A stretch of DNA of 35,355 bases from Cryobacterium sp. (GTDB lineage: Bacteria; Actinomycetota; Actinomycetes; Actinomycetales; Microbacteriaceae), in assembly GCA_019638935.1 (NCBI GenBank), contig JAHBSW010000024.1:1-35355 (forward strand), given 5' to 3'. A program made the translations under genes and the position numbers. This document shows, one piece after another, positions 901 through 31,655 of this stretch (position 1 is its first letter; each line of letters opens with the position of its first letter). The notes beneath the pieces are model-generated. The model was given only the letters and a program-made list of their open reading frames with translations, was not told where the DNA came from and ran no database searches.

Positions 901-933
901 GGTTTCGATACGCGGCTTCGCCGCTACTCAACC
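901..933 (+). repeat. Dispersed palindromic repeat, copy A
   Basis: Near-consensus copy of the family found throughout the window: left end GGTTTCGATACGC, a GCGGC-ttc-GCCGC core and right end GCTACTCAACC. It lies between the amidohydrolase and dihydropyrimidinase genes, so it would be transcribed as an RNA hairpin within that operon. Confidence 0.85.
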
Positions 934-941
934 GGCGGCGG

Positions 942-976
942 GGTTTCGATACGCCGCCCTCGTCGGCTGCTCAACC
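942..976 (+). repeat. Dispersed palindromic repeat, copy B
   Basis: Second copy, same orientation, starting 8 bp after copy A: GGTTTCGATACGC left end and GCTGCTCAACC right end around a CGCCGccctcgtCGGC-type core. The head-to-tail pair occupies most of the 114-bp operon gap. Confidence 0.85.
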
Positions 977-9520: not shown

Positions 9521-9558
9521 GGTGGTCGAGGAGGTCACGCGGCGATGGTCTCGAAACC
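9521..9558 (-). repeat. Dispersed palindromic repeat, copy C (degenerate)
   Basis: Inverted, weakened copy: GGTCGAGGAG at one end and GTCTCGAAACC at the other around a poorly paired core. It lies 8 bp downstream of the small coiled-coil gene and upstream of moxR. Ends match the family, the core does not, so the copy looks old. Confidence 0.6.
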
Positions 9559-9565
9559 GCGGTTC

Positions 9566-9904
9566 TCAGTCGCCGGGAACGCCGAAGACCTTCTTGCTGA
9601 TGGCGCTCACGTCGCGGTCGAGGTGCTCGAGCTTCACGTACACCGTCTCGAACTTGGCGTCCACTGCGGCGAAACCGGCCTTCATCTCCCCCGCCAACCC
9701 GTCGATGCGCGCGTGGACACCGTCGATGCGGGCGTCGACACCATCGATGCGACCGTGCACCCCTTCGATGCGACCGTTGACACCATCGATCGCAGACGTC
9801 AGCGCGCGCATCAGCAGCGTCGTCATGAGGGTCATGCCGCCGAGCATGACCGCAGCGAACACCCCCAGGAGCGTCCAGATCTGCGGATCGTTCACCGGGC
9901 TCAT
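9566..9904 (-). CDS. Small membrane-anchored coiled-coil protein
   Basis: A 112-residue protein with one N-terminal membrane helix (IWTLLGVFAAVMLGGMTLMTTLL, residues ~9-32) followed by an almost perfect seven-residue repeat of the form RIDGVHA over residues ~40-75, then a Lys/Glu-rich end. Such a heptad predicts a long coiled coil on one side of the membrane. No enzymatic motif is present and I do not recognise a named family. The ATG at 9904 abuts GGAGGG with no spacer; GTG three codons later has a better distance from it (9 nt), so the true start may be there. It sits between the two DUF58-transglutaminase units in the same direction, so a structural role in that system is possible but unproven. 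Confidence 0.75.
   Translation of the reverse strand: MSPVNDPQIWTLLGVFAAVMLGGMTLMTTLLMRALTSAIDGVNGRIEGVHGRIDGVDARIDGVHARIDGLAGEMKAGFAAVDAKFETVYVKLEHLDRDVSAISKKVFGVPGD
9700..9804. repeat. Five tandem 21-bp units encoding the heptads
   Basis: Head-to-tail 21-bp units beginning at 9700, 9721, 9742, 9763 and 9784, each starting with a form of CGTCGATGCG. Twenty-one bp equals one heptad, so changes in copy number keep the reading frame and lengthen or shorten the coiled coil. Confidence 0.85.
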
Positions 9905-17283: not shown

Positions 17284-18218
17284 CTGTTTAGCCTAGCTAA
17301 GGAACGGGTGCTGCCGATGGTGAGCACGACGATTCCCAGCGCCAGTACCCCGACGCCGAGAAGACCGAGCGGAGCAAGCCGTTCACCGAGCACGACGAAG
17401 CCGAGCGTCGACGCCGTGAGGGGTTCAGCGAGCGTAAGCGTGGTGACGGTCGATGCCCTCAGCGCGGTGAGGCCCAGACCGAAGAGAACGTAGCCGAGCG
17501 TCGTCGTCACGAGACCGAGCCACAGCGCCATGATCATGCCGTCGACGGTCGCCAGCCACCCATAGTCGGTGAGCAGCAGAATCGGGATGCTCGCCACCGC
17601 CGACCAGCCGAACAGCGCGCCCATCGAGCTCGTCGAGTCCCACCCGCGGCCGATGAGCTCCTTGCCCGCGAGAGCGTAGACGGCGTAGCCCAGACCCGCG
17701 CCGACCGAGGCGAGCAGCCCGAGCGGGTCGGCGGACACGAGTGCCCCCTCGCCCGCACTCGCGAGTCCCAGAAGCACCACGCCCGCCGTGGCGATCACCG
17801 TCGCGACGAGCCACCACGTCCCCGGGAACCGCCGATAGAGCATCCAGTCGAGAACACCCGTCAGCACGGGTGCGGAACCGAGCGCCACGACCGTGCCCAC
17901 CGCGACGCCGTTCGCCGCCGTGCCCGCGAAGAAGCTCGGCTGGTACGCCACCACCCCCGCCGCTCCAAGGGCGATGACGAGCCAGGTGGGAACGCGATGC
18001 ATCGACGACTCGGGTGCGAGCATTGGAACCGGCACAGCACGGACTGCAGCACGTCGGCGCCGCGCGAGAAGCCATGCGATCGCCGCCAGGGCGCCGCCGC
18101 CGATGACGATGCGAGCCGCCCCCACAGACAGCGCACCGGCATCCGGACCCAGCGCTGCCGCCGTGCCGGTCGTGCCGAAGCACACTGCGGCGAGCAGTAT
18201 GAAGAGAACGTGGCGCAC
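17280..18218 (-). CDS. EamA/DMT-superfamily transporter
   Basis: A 312-residue integral membrane protein with two five-helix EamA halves. Examples are helix 1 (VLFILLAAVCFGTTGTAAAL), GVVAYQPSFFAGTAANGVAVGTVVALGSAPVL in the first half and GYVLFGLGLTALRASTVTTLTLAEPL in the second. This family exports or exchanges small metabolites such as amino acids; the substrate here cannot be read. The start is GTG 18218, 12 nt after the coaD stop, without a good ribosome site, so translation may depend on coaD. Its stop overlaps the start of the Fgd-like gene, an unusual link between a DMT transporter and F420 enzymes. Confidence 0.85.
   Translation of the reverse strand: MRHVLFILLAAVCFGTTGTAAALGPDAGALSVGAARIVIGGGALAAIAWLLARRRRAAVRAVPVPMLAPESSMHRVPTWLVIALGAAGVVAYQPSFFAGTAANGVAVGTVVALGSAPVLTGVLDWMLYRRFPGTWWLVATVIATAGVVLLGLASAGEGALVSADPLGLLASVGAGLGYAVYALAGKELIGRGWDSTSSMGALFGWSAVASIPILLLTDYGWLATVDGMIMALWLGLVTTTLGYVLFGLGLTALRASTVTTLTLAEPLTASTLGFVVLGERLAPLGLLGVGVLALGIVVLTIGSTRSLARLNR
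17290..17295 (-). promoter_or_regulatory. -10-like TAGGCT within the end of eamA, before the Fgd-like gene
   Basis: TAGGCT ends 6 nt before ATG 17283, the same spacing as at other probable leaderless starts here. It is inside the last codons of the EamA gene, so it could also be chance coding sequence. Confidence 0.4.
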
Positions 18219-18752: not shown

Positions 18753-20948
18753 TCAGTTCTTGGCGAGGAAGTCACGTTCCGTCACATCGAGACGTCGCTC
18801 GAGCGCGTCGGCGAGGGCCGGATGCCTCGCGAGCTCGGGATCGTCGGCGAGCAGCTTCTCGGCGAGACCGCGTGCCTCCAGAATGAGGTCGCCGTCCTTC
18901 GCCACGCGCAGGAGTCGCAGACTCGAGCGGCCACCCGACTGCACGCTGCCGAGCACATCGCCCTCGTGACGCAGCTCGAGATCGACCTGTGCGAGCTCGA
19001 ATCCGTCGAGAGTGGCGGCGACGGCCTCGACGCGGTCGCGGGCGAGACCGCCCTCCTCGGCGTGGGTGACGAGCAGGGCGAGGCCCGGCTCGGTGCCTCG
19101 GCCGACGCGCCCGCGCAGCTGGTGCAGCTGCGACACCCCGAAGCGGTCGGCGTCGAGCACGACCATGACCGAGGCGTTCGGCACGTCGACGCCGACCTCG
19201 ATCACGGTCGTCGCGACGAGCACGTCGAGGTCGCCGGCGGCGAAGGAGCGCATGATGCGGTCTTTCTCGTCGCTGGGCAGGCGTCCGTGCAGCGCCTCGA
19301 TGCGGGAGTTCCGCAGCGACGGATGCGCGCGCACCAGTTCCAGGGTCTCCGCAACGGTCGATACCTGACGATTCTCATCGGTGGTTTCGATACGCGAGGA
19401 CGACGGGTCGTCCTCGCTGCTCAACCCGCGGTCAGACTCGTCCGACCGCGCGATCGCGGGTGCGACGACGAAGCCCTGGCGGCCCTTGGCGAGCTCTTCG
19501 GCGAGGCGCTCCCAGACGCGTGCCTCCCAGCCCGGCCGCTCGGCGAGGGGAACGACGAAGGATTCGATCGGCTGCCTCCCCCCGGGGAGCGTGCGAATCG
19601 TCGAGACATCGAGGTCGCCGAACACCGTCATGGCGACGGTGCGGGGAATCGGCGTCGCCGTGAGCACGAGCACGTGCGGCGGGGTCTGTGCCTTCAACCG
19701 CAGTGCCTCGCGCTGCTCGACGCCGAAGCGGTGCTGCTCGTCGACGACAACCAGCCCGAGGTCGTAGAAGGCGGTCTTGTCGCCGAGCAGGGCGTGGGTG
19801 CCGACCACGATGCGCGCCGACCCGCTCACGGCGGCGAGCGTCGCCTTGCGTCGATCGGCGATCGGCAGCTGACCGGTGATGAGGGTCGGTCGCAGCTGTT
19901 CCGACAGCTCGGGGCCGAGCACGTCGACCATCGACCGCAGGTGCTGGGCGGCGAGAACCTCCGTCGGGGCGAGGAGTGCCGACTGCCCGCCCGAGTCGGC
20001 GACCGCGAGCATCGCGCGCAGGGCGACGAGGGTCTTGCCCGACCCGACCTCGCCCTGCAGCAGGCGGTTCATCGGCACCGGCGCCGCCAGGTCGGCGGCG
20101 ATCTCGGCGCCCACCGTCTGCTGGTCCTCGGTGAGTGCGAACGCGAGTCTCGCGTCGAAGCGCTCCAGCAGACCGCCGGGCTTCGGCACGCGCGGCACCG
20201 CCGCCGACTCGCGAAGCTTCGCCCGCTCCCGCAGCAGCGCCGCCTGCAGCACGAATGCCTCCTGAAACCGCAGCGTGTCGAGGGCGGCGCGCCACTCGGC
20301 ATCCGTCGCGGGCCGGTGCGCCAACCGCAGAGCATCATCGAAGGCGAGCAGGTTGCGGGAGGTGCGCACGGCATCCGGAAGCGGGTCATCGAGTGTCGGC
20401 ATGGTCTCGAGCACCTCTTCGATGGCACGGCGAATCTTCCAGCTCGGCAGGGTCGACGTCGCGGGGTAGATCGGGATGGGTTGCAGCGCCCACGCCTTCG
20501 CCGCCTCGCCGTCGAGCTCGGACGCCCCCTCGGATTCGACTGCGAAGAGCTCGTAGTCGGGATGCGTGAGCTGACGGGCACCACGGTAATCGGTGACCTT
20601 GCCGCTGAACGTGCCGCGTGCGCCGCGGTGCAGCTCCTTCGCGCGCCACTGCTGGTTGAAGAAGGTGAGGGTCAGGGTTCCCTTGGCGTCGCCGATCGTG
20701 ACGACGAGCAGCGAGCCGCGCTTGGCGCGCATGGGCCGCTCCTGCACGTCGAGCACCTCGCCGACGATCGTCACCGTCTCGCCGAGCGGCAGGCGGGAGA
20801 GGTCGCTCAGCTCGCCGCGCCGGGCGTAGCGCCGCGGGTAGTGGGCGAGCAGGTCGCCGACGGTTTCGAGGGCGAACGCCTTGCGCAGCGGCGCGGCAGC
20901 ACGTCCGCCGAGCACGGCGGAGAGCTGTTGATCGAGAGGCGAACCCAC
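18753..20948 (-). CDS. recG: ATP-dependent DNA helicase RecG, carrying a repeat-encoded insert
   Basis: A 731-residue branch-migration helicase that reverses stalled replication forks and processes Holliday junctions. It has an N-terminal wedge/OB domain (VTIVGEVLDVQERPMRAKRG), motif I QGEVGSGKTLVALRA (~297-310), motif II VVVDEQHRFGVEQREAL (~398-415), motif III VLVLTATPIPRT and motif VI QLRGRVGRG. The start is GTG 20948, 6 nt after a TACGCT hexamer. Residues ~507-523 (GLSSEDDPSSSRIETT) are encoded by a complete copy of the dispersed palindromic repeat, in frame, in the loop after APAIARS between helicase blocks. Core motifs are intact, so the protein is probably active. Confidence 0.95.
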   Translation of the reverse strand: MGSPLDQQLSAVLGGRAAAPLRKAFALETVGDLLAHYPRRYARRGELSDLSRLPLGETVTIVGEVLDVQERPMRAKRGSLLVVTIGDAKGTLTLTFFNQQWRAKELHRGARGTFSGKVTDYRGARQLTHPDYELFAVESEGASELDGEAAKAWALQPIPIYPATSTLPSWKIRRAIEEVLETMPTLDDPLPDAVRTSRNLLAFDDALRLAHRPATDAEWRAALDTLRFQEAFVLQAALLRERAKLRESAAVPRVPKPGGLLERFDARLAFALTEDQQTVGAEIAADLAAPVPMNRLLQGEVGSGKTLVALRAMLAVADSGGQSALLAPTEVLAAQHLRSMVDVLGPELSEQLRPTLITGQLPIADRRKATLAAVSGSARIVVGTHALLGDKTAFYDLGLVVVDEQHRFGVEQREALRLKAQTPPHVLVLTATPIPRTVAMTVFGDLDVSTIRTLPGGRQPIESFVVPLAERPGWEARVWERLAEELAKGRQGFVVAPAIARSDESDRGLSSEDDPSSSRIETTDENRQVSTVAETLELVRAHPSLRNSRIEALHGRLPSDEKDRIMRSFAAGDLDVLVATTVIEVGVDVPNASVMVVLDADRFGVSQLHQLRGRVGRGTEPGLALLVTHAEEGGLARDRVEAVAATLDGFELAQVDLELRHEGDVLGSVQSGGRSSLRLLRVAKDGDLILEARGLAEKLLADDPELARHPALADALERRLDVTERDFLAKN
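19383..19426 (+). repeat. Dispersed palindromic repeat, copy D, inside recG
   Basis: GGTTTCGATACGC left end and GCTGCTCAACC right end flank a perfect 11-bp stem (GCGAGGACGAC / GTCGTCCTCGC) with a 2-nt loop at 19394-19417. It is read from the minus strand as LSSEDDPSSSRIETT in RecG. It is the most perfectly paired copy in the window. Confidence 0.9.
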
Positions 20949-23671: not shown

Positions 23672-23710
23672 CTGGTTTCGAGACGCGCGCGTCGCGCGCT
23701 CCTCAACCAG
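23672..23710 (+). repeat. Dispersed palindromic repeat, copy E
   Basis: CTGGTTTCGAGACGC left end, CGCGCG-rich core and CTCCTCAACCAG right end. The outer six bases (CTGGTT / AACCAG) extend the palindrome. First of four elements between the convergent DUF3515 and ddl genes; its hairpin could help end transcription from either side. Confidence 0.85.
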
Positions 23711-28732: not shown

Positions 28733-30270
28733 TACGATGCCTCCTGAGTCTCGCCGGTCGAGGATCTCGATACGCCGCCGTCAGCGGCCACTCGATCACC
28801 GGAGGATCTGCTGGTCGAGTAGGCCGGAACGGCCGTATCGAGACCCGCATCGCCCCCCTCGAGATCCCACGGGCTCGACAGGGTGCCGCGGATGGCGGTG
28901 GCCGCCGCCACGAGCGGAGACACGAGGTGGGTGCGACCGCCCTTGCCCTGGCGGCCCTCGAAGTTGCGGTTGGACGTCGACGCGCAGCGCTCCCCCGGAG
29001 CCAGCTGGTCGGGGTTCATGCCGAGGCACATCGAGCAGCCGGCGAAGCGCCACTCCGCACCGAACTCCTCGACGATCCTGTCGATTCCCTCGGCCTCGGC
29101 CTCGAGGCGAACGCGCGCCGAGCCGGGCACGACCATGACGCGCACACCGTCGGCCTTCTTCCGGCCCTTGATGATCGAGGCGAACGCACGAAGATCCTCG
29201 ATGCGGCTGTTCGTGCACGAGCCCATGAACACGGCATCCACTCGAATGTCCTTCATCGGCGTGCCGGCCTCGAGGTCCATGTACTCGAGCGCCCGCTCCG
29301 CCGAGGCCCGCTCGTTCGGGTCGATGATCGCCGAGGGGTCGGGCACGCGGTCGGAGAGCAGCACTCCCTGTCCGGGGTTGGTCCCCCAGGTGACGAAGGG
29401 CTCGAGCTCGTTCGCGTCGATGAAGACCTCGGCGTCGAACACCGCGTCGTCGTCGGTGGCGAGAGTGTTCCAGTAGGCGACCGCGGCATCCCAGTCGGCG
29501 CCCTCGGGGGCGTGCGGACGGCCCCTGAGGTAGTCGTAGGTGATCTGGTCGGGGGCGACCATGCCCGCGCGGGCACCGGCCTCGATCGACATGTTGCAGA
29601 TCGTCATCCGGCCCTCCATCGAGAGCGAGCGGATGGCGCTGCCGCGGTACTCCAGCACGTAGCCCTGACCGCCACCGGTGCCGATCTTGGCGATGACCGC
29701 GAGGATGATGTCCTTCGCGCTCACACCGGGGCGAAGCTCGCCCTCGACGGTGATCGCCATCGTCTTCGGCGGCATGAGCGGCAGCGTCTGCGTCGCGAGC
29801 ACGTGCTCGACCTCGCTCGTGCCGATGCCGAACGCCATCGCGCCGAAAGCGCCGTGGGTGCTCGTGTGCGAGTCGCCGCACACCACCGTGACGCCCGGCA
29901 TGGTGAGGCCGAGCTGCGGGCCGACGACATGCACGATCCCCTGCTCCACGTCGCCGAGCGGGTGCAGGCGGATGCCGAACTCCGCACAGTTCGCGCGCAG
30001 GGTCTCGATCTGGGTGCGGCTGACCGGGTCTTCGATGCGGCTGAGGATGTTGAGCGTGGGGGTGTTGTGATCTTCGGTGGCGATCGTCAGATCGGGGCGG
30101 CGCACGGGACGACCCGCCATCCGAAGGCCATCGAATGCTTGGGGGCTCGTGACCTCGTGCACGAGGTGGAGGTCGATGTAGAGGAGGTCGGGCGTGCCGT
30201 CCTCGCCTTTGACCACGATGTGGTCCTGCCACACTTTCTCCGCGAGCGTTCTACCCACCCTGAACCTCAT
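28732..30270 (-). CDS. leuC: 3-isopropylmalate dehydratase large subunit with repeat-encoded tail
   Basis: A 512-residue aconitase-family subunit carrying the [4Fe-4S] cluster of isopropylmalate isomerase. Landmarks: [51 protein letters not shown] (first cluster Cys) and [20 protein letters not shown] (the other two). The usual family end GTLSSPWDL is followed by about 40 extra residues (low-complexity, with STSRSSGD and SRSSTGETQ) encoded largely by two palindromic repeats. ATG 30270 is used; a GTG four codons later has a better ribosome site (GAGG 6 nt upstream) and is a fair alternative. A TAGACT hexamer lies about 40 nt upstream. Confidence 0.94.
28762..28800 (+). repeat. Dispersed palindromic repeat, copy I, inside leuC end
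   Basis: GATCTCGATACGC left end, CCGCCgtcaGCGG-type core and CCACTCGATCACC right end. It is read on the minus strand as part of the extra C-terminal residues of LeuC. Confidence 0.75.
28813..28845 (-). repeat. Dispersed palindromic repeat, copy J, inside leuC end
   Basis: On the plus strand, GGTCGAGTAGGCCG, a gaa loop and CGGCCGTATCGAGACC: the inverted orientation, with a clean CGGCC/GGCCG stem. Copies I and J face each other and together span 28762-28845, almost all of the LeuC tail. Confidence 0.85.
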
Positions 30271-31620: not shown

Positions 31621-31655
31621 GGTTGAGTAGCCGCCGCAGGCGGCGTATCGAAACC
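31621..31655 (-). repeat. Dispersed palindromic repeat, copy K
   Basis: Plus strand GGTTGAGTAGCCGCCG...CGGCGTATCGAAACC: an inverted near-consensus copy with a CCGCCG/CGGCGG stem. With copy L it lies between the convergent dehydrogenase and terC genes. Confidence 0.88.

Follow-up and report, generated by a model that had tools for sequence, protein, structure and literature searches.

The closest described systems are the REPs. In the review of Di Nocera 2013 (PMC3733652), as far as its available text goes, REPs of the GTAG and CGTC types were described, together with their inverted dimers and their siting between convergent and same-direction genes. Copies were also reported within genes, many of them genes of replication and repair, and the Rickettsia elements RPE-4 and RPE-6 were counted among the REPs. 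The enzyme that mobilises the CGTC REPs was given there as unknown. The consulted portion of a TnpA-REP study (PMC8266576) reported that the GTAG tag matters, and that in one system a substrate with GCAG was hardly cut. The in-frame fusions of RPEs are reviewed in PMC10969869, in the sections seen. Three Actinomycetota genomes stand in the table of predicted REPs of RepRanger (PMC12306157), in the excerpt used here, so that predicted REPs of this phylum are already in print.

Among the matches listed, a literature search with the letters of the repeat returned no bacterial-repeat title, a search for GIY-YIG together with REP returned no link between them (titles and abstract starts), and a search for REPs in Microbacteriaceae or Actinobacteria returned nothing on a palindrome family. 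The present palindrome family and its link to a GIY-YIG gene are thus not in the literature among the matches listed; in-frame REPs were already known (Rickettsia; Di Nocera 2013).

The palindromic copy within recG

The window, the whole stretch of 35,355 nucleotides of Cryobacterium sp. DNA that was analysed, contains five strict copies of the family, one of which lies inside recG, as well as more degenerate sequences:

18753-20948, minus strand: recG, 731 aa, in which the in-frame element forms residues from about 508 to 523 (GLSSEDDPSSSRIETT); from the ORF, Pfam, NCBIfam and AlphaFold
19383-19426, plus strand: palindromic copy with T-type arms and an 11-bp stem; from pattern, fold and consensus, the consensus extending to about 19431
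901-933, plus strand: T-type family copy; strict pattern
942-976, plus strand: T-type family copy in tandem with 901-933; strict pattern
23674-23708, plus strand: G-type family copy (GGTTTCGAGACG...CTCCTCAACC); strict pattern
31621-31655, minus strand: T-type family copy; strict pattern
28813-28845, minus strand: degenerate family copy; relaxed pattern
9524-9558, minus strand: possible degenerate family copy; relaxed pattern

The ORF at 18753-20948 was named RecG by its NCBIfam profile, and nothing else in the genome matches the RecG segment over its full length. The DEAD, Helicase_C, wedge and RecG C-terminal domains were all found in it by Pfam, and the closest named RecGs, those of Leifsonia, Rhodoglobus and Salinibacterium (67-71%), place the host in Microbacteriaceae. 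The 44 bp at 19383-19426 read GGTTTCGATACG-CGAGGACGACGGGTCGTCCTCG-CTGCTCAACC, and the stem, GCGAGGACGAC/GTCGTCCTCGC, comprises 11 bp with zero mismatches, a perfect stem longer than any other in the 42 own-genome copies compared. As single-stranded DNA, the minus strand of 19383-19430 was calculated to fold with -13.3 kcal/mol (z -2.6). The right arm is CTGCTCAACC, compared with the common CTACTCAACC, and the copy bears GCAG where T-type copies have GTAG and G-type copies GGAG.

The preliminary description had presented this element as a complete palindrome, read in frame through an intact recG. Position and stem were confirmed exactly, and the end was moved outward, since the family consensus runs for 5 bp (AGCGG) beyond CTCAACC and the copy therefore reaches about 19431. 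The 731-aa ORF has no stop and retains the RecG domains. Across the element its frame reads ...ESDRG-LSSEDDPSSSRIETT-DENRQ..., to which the element appears to add about 15 amino acids; the in-frame stretch, placed earlier at residues ~506-524, stood, with its limits corrected to about 508-523. Membership of the recG copy in the repeat family, and its in-frame insertion, are near certain.

The RecG loop that carries the element is hypervariable in length, also in proteins without elements. A wider span, taken from the 65 RecGs that could be parsed among 88 loci (23 unparsed loci being excluded), ranged from 50 to 83 residues, with 64 in the own protein, and was exceeded in 13 of the 64 others, all at loci without a strict copy. 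Because of these longer spans and the variability of the loop, no exact gap can be drawn in RecG, and the precise gap expected earlier for most relatives was not borne out. The junctions of the element cannot be placed exactly in loops so divergent, so that a target site duplication is not readable. Within the genus, the own loop, at 53 residues, is the longest of eight, those of the seven congeners measuring 39, 39, 41, 41, 43, 47 and 47. A loop of the same length but of non-repeat sequence in all close relatives had been named beforehand as evidence against insertion; 7 of 7 congeners are shorter, and the genus comparison supports insertion. In an AlphaFold2 model built with 30 sequences (mean pLDDT 83.7), values below 50 were obtained for residues 503-523, which cover the element-encoded stretch, and for residues 138-142 and 663-677. 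The copy sits in a low-confidence, probably disordered loop of helicase domain 2; this loop joins a strand to a helix, which is probably why the insertion is tolerated.

Copies, anatomy and distribution of the family

The family is not peculiar to the recG locus or to its genome. In the 2.41-Mb own genome, the T-type pattern (GGTTTCGATACG-N4..30-CTCAACC) gave 36 matches and the G-type pattern (GGTTTCGAGACG...CTCAACC) 59, both of which are upper counts because a variable-gap pattern may count one left arm twice; the reversed controls gave 0 for each. The family arms are TTTCGA[T/G]ACG...CTCAACC, and the element is mostly 31-47 bp long. The AGCGG consensus follows CTCAACC, with its C present in 97% of copies. 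The tag, GTAG in T-type and GGAG in G-type copies, is internal and base-paired, rather than terminal as the GTAG and CGTC tags of REPs are.

The two arms covary. Among 192 distinct copies in the fetched loci, the base that varies in the left arm and the one preceding CTCAACC were T-A in 116, G-C in 70, T-G in 5 and G-G in 1. Over the first five positions of the stem, a mean of 4.44 were paired in 187 copies, 101 of which were paired at all five, compared with a mean of 2.78, and a maximum of 3.01 in 1000 shuffles, for the arm-shuffled control. Pairing so far above that of shuffled arms indicates that the sequence of the stem turns over while its pairing is largely retained. Neighbouring copies with less than 60 bp between them formed 35 pairs, of which 19 were inverted and had the GTAG/GGAG side facing outward, 5 were inverted the other way, and 11 were head-to-tail. 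In one genome (G185), local tandem copies with common stems were found, as were composite units, arranged head-to-tail and about 230 bp long, consisting of opposed copies and a repeated spacer. A replication-strand bias, as expected for single-strand transposition, was not seen in G185, the sole genome counted: by hand count of 77 of its 83 copies (dnaA at about 0.7 kb), the first half holds 25 minus and 19 plus copies, and the second 17 and 16. An all-plus run of copies in another genome (G097) proved to be an artefact of listing order. A separate repeat, consisting of tandem 21-bp units (CCGTCGATGCG...; family D6), was noticed at 9699-9782 of the window.

With one genome taken per species, T-type arms were found in 37 and G-type arms in 21 of 199 Microbacteriaceae genomes, and either type in 47 (a hand count from the two lists), with a distribution that is patchy among genera as well as inside them. 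Across a sample of the whole phylum, the stricter T-type pattern (CTACTCAACC) was found in 2 of 396 genomes, namely the own genome and one from another family of the same class (G497), which has 15 strict-arm matches with stems that are often longer. The context of 144 distinct copies, 10 copies at locus ends being left out, was convergent in 56, same-direction in 68, divergent in 6, and inside genes in 14. The 313 background gene pairs, drawn from 80 recG-relative loci without strict copies, comprised 42 convergent, 214 same-direction and 57 divergent pairs; genes were called with a codon-usage model trained on RecG, not taken from annotation. In the own-genome stretches, 4 of 61 copies lie inside genes, although ORFs make up 88% of the DNA, a scarcity that suggests strong selection against insertion in genes.

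The 14 intragenic copies among the 144 scored lie in frame inside conserved genes, as Rickettsia palindromic elements do, although this fraction is no test of a frame preference since the rule of a spanning ORF is blind to genes broken by an element. In the own genome their hosts are recG, mfd and valS. Elsewhere they are hrpA, lhr, ygfZ, ileS, allantoinase, a dhaM/ptsI-type gene, menB, menD, and hsdM-like, ABC-F-like ATPase and DAO-type oxidoreductase genes, where the "-like" names are approximate because a number of the ORFs are truncated where the locus ends and a number of the scores fall below the curated cut-off. A further in-frame host, beyond these 14, is the own trmD, a 265-aa ORF matched by a 221-position TrmD profile, which carries an inverted doublet. 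Two of the own proteins are longer in this region than those of their congeners. The loop span of ValS is 84 residues, compared with 57-64 in seven congeners, and among 29 aligned relatives one is longer (90) and one has 83; the Mfd linker is the longest of eight in the genus over the aligned stretch. One stem, ATTCGGGC, is common to the mfd copy and to a copy adjoining the own GIY-YIG gene described below. The earlier proposal that the element is a source of new protein segments holds on this reading of the genes, with in-frame copies in at least 14 conserved genes besides recG (13 and trmD). As separate observations, the linker of the own Mfd (L212, L039; contig C1 from ~18.7 kb) carries an array of the arm-derived peptides RLET, GFETIRAMPESLNH, SLNH and SLNQ, and HrpA of genome G060 (L196) contains a tandem element-derived peptide, AGGRASGAPQP, as if the element had been duplicated in frame.

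The GIY-YIG nuclease gene beside the copies

Among 505 ORFs neighbouring copies in 31 genomes, a one-domain GIY-YIG gene was the stand-out cluster; the other clusters shown as recurrent neighbours looked, by eye, like ordinary host genes. With an HMM of the GIY-YIG gene, eight such genes were found, including one in the own genome:

Contig C6 (locus L386), 17407-17703, minus strand: one-domain GIY-YIG nuclease gene; HMM match

PF01541 scored over the cut-off in all five of the eight proteins that were scanned. Residues Y5, Y15, R25, H29 and E62, which we take to be the catalytic residues of a GIY-YIG nuclease, are invariant in all eight, and the closest solved relatives are the UPF0213 proteins 1zg2 and 1ywl.

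Each of the eight genes has a strict copy at a distance of 29-69 bp, as measured from the HMM match, although it counts against this figure that four of them (in G097, G117, G071 and G025) were first found through adjacency to copies and that three (in G113, G053 and G123) lie in stretches of a few kb that had been selected for the copies in them, the own gene being the only one to come from 20-kb stretches. Positions this close to copies make up 3.5% of the stretches of other genomes and 0.7% of those of the own genome, and 650 kb of loci collected for matches to recG, mfd, valS and other genes yielded no GIY-YIG gene, though a few of these loci do contain element copies. The gene was not seen in 27 of 35 element-bearing genomes, each sampled in part, which also counts against the association. 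The arrangement is constant with respect to the gene. Upstream, the nearest copy is inverted in all eight cases, that of G053 being degenerate, and a forward copy lies downstream in 7 of 8 (degenerate in the own genome, G117 and G071; none in G025); the own gene has two inverted G-type copies upstream and the degenerate forward copy downstream. Between element and start codon, a CTGTGGATAAC-like string was noted, exact in three of the eight loci (L386, L362, L326) and with one mismatch in two (L347, L313), where mononucleotide shuffles gave a mean of 0.004; these occurrences are not independent, since the genes are related. The string matches the DnaA-box form TTATNCACA.

Outside the family, nine plasmid records that encode a relative of the nuclease were inspected. 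Palindromes with TTCGA...CTCA ends adjoin the gene in three, all alphaproteobacterial (Sphingomonas L405 and Methylobacterium L406 and L408), and the palindrome of M. bullatum has at least 40 occurrences in its record. The other six had no accepted flanking palindrome, which counts against a general association. A second Sphingomonas record (L407) has one TGAG...TCGAA string that is not palindromic and so was not accepted, nor were an unrelated 9-bp hairpin upstream of the gene in a Legionella record and two unrelated hairpins downstream in an Acetoanaerobium record. No palindrome was found beside the gene in Subdoligranulum, Radiobacillus or B. subtilis (yazA), and in the latter two it lies between a tRNA methyltransferase gene and rsmI. 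Among 15 viral contigs with a relative, only the best match (L414, GC 0.71) has an upstream inverted palindrome of the TTCGAGACGC...GCTCCTCA type, and L415 has a bare string match only; element-type flanks are thus absent in 14 of 15, which likewise counts against. Most of these relatives of the nuclease lack such flanks, and the association is limited to part of the nuclease family.

Competing explanations and comparison with known systems

The recG segment is probably a non-autonomous copy of a REP-like family of mobile palindromes of Microbacteriaceae, spread by means of the GIY-YIG nuclease, with genic copies surviving in frame and in flexible loops. The nuclease would recognise the hairpin and cut at or beside the palindrome, and repair or re-insertion after the cut would leave a new copy. 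Most insertions in genes would be lost by selection, as their scarcity suggests, and those that keep the frame in flexible loops would survive and give rise to new, probably neutral, protein segments. From the position of the gene beside the copies, we infer that the insertion route depends on the GIY-YIG enzyme, and the nuclease is proposed on the same grounds to drive the REP-like system. A wider generalisation is more tentative, and we hold it at slightly below an even chance: that a REP-like class of Actinobacteria and Alphaproteobacteria uses a one-domain GIY-YIG enzyme, not an HUH transposase, to copy palindromes with TTCGA...CTCA cores, which are repeatedly read as segments of essential-type proteins.

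An unlikely but serious alternative is that the palindromes are hairpins kept as RNA signals at 3' ends and spread by host recombination, duplication or gene conversion, the GIY-YIG gene being a passenger in a favoured landing place. The strong bias to convergent and downstream positions is in keeping with such signals, as are the local tandem copies with common stems and the composite units of G185. Yet the in-frame genic copies and the isolated copies require insertion, and the GIY-YIG genes are flanked in 8 of 8 cases, with a constant orientation of the copies relative to the gene.

It is very improbable that these are classical REPs of a RAYT (Y1 HUH) system whose transposase was lost or missed. 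T-type copies do contain GTAG, and doublets and context agree with the REPs of Di Nocera 2013, as described in the available text of PMC3733652. However, the G-type copies have GGAG, the GTAG is internal and base-paired instead of terminal, and at E 0.001 PF01797 (RAYT/IS200 Y1 transposase) was found neither in the own genome nor in any of the 47 element-bearing genomes; its one occurrence among the 199 family genomes is in a genome without either arm type. RAYT was on this basis rejected as the mobiliser.

There is an equally small chance that the recG segment is a selected, useful feature of the protein and not a tolerated one. Helicases do recur as hosts (RecG, Mfd, Lhr, HrpA), and repair genes recur likewise among the REP-bearing genes in the portion of Di Nocera 2013 (PMC3733652) seen here, but the hosts include many unrelated genes, and the RecG loop is neither conserved nor modelled with confidence. 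Least credible of all is a variable RecG loop, in a family where length and sequence of the loop vary widely, that came to resemble the repeat by chance or local mutation, given that both arms and a perfect 11-bp stem fit the family, that reversed controls gave 0, and that the own loop is the longest of eight in the genus.

REPs are common repeats of bacteria, and a small nuclease gene that several genera keep next to inverted copies, or between them, is a concrete and testable candidate mobiliser. On the wider generalisation given above, a GIY-YIG enzyme could supply the partner that REPs without RAYT lack. The in-frame copies indicate that protein segments arise in this way in Microbacteriaceae too (helicases, tRNA synthetases, TrmD).

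The family resembles MITEs in that the element would be non-autonomous and would need a partner enzyme in trans, and differs in that no insertion-sequence terminal inverted repeats were recognised. The nuclease resembles one-domain GIY-YIG proteins of the UPF0213/YazA type (PF01541, about 95 aa), matching BH0048 (1zg2) and EF2693 (1ywl), whereas the two Bacilli genes inspected (Radiobacillus and B. subtilis) lie in operons without palindromes and the genes here are flanked by elements. The preliminary description had named the Rickettsia elements as the known parallel and knew of no such family in Microbacteriaceae; the likeness of in-frame insertion held, and the nearest parallel is rather the REPs generally. 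With the CGTC REPs, including RPE-4 and RPE-6, the family shares palindromes in frame in many genes, but is set apart by its arms and tag, going by the description in the text seen of PMC3733652.

The likeness to REP/BIME/REPIN systems with RAYT (GTAG super-family) is closer. As set out by Di Nocera 2013, a palindrome of 20-40 bp occurs in many copies, in convergent and unidirectional settings and in doublets. The elements are short dispersed palindromes whose inverted doublets have the GTAG side outward, they lie between convergent or same-direction genes, and some are in frame in repair and tRNA-related genes. They differ in the arms TTTCGA[T/G]ACG...CTCAACC, in the internal and paired GTAG/GGAG, in a very variable stem, and in an actinomycetotal host, outside the phyla named in the main text of PMC3733652 as seen. 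No Y1 HUH transposase gene, which marks the RAYT REPtron, was found beside the copies, and a GIY-YIG gene occupies the RAYT position. The family was not filed as a RAYT REP because two defining features are missing, though it works like one: the arrangement is like that of a REPtron in which another enzyme replaces RAYT.
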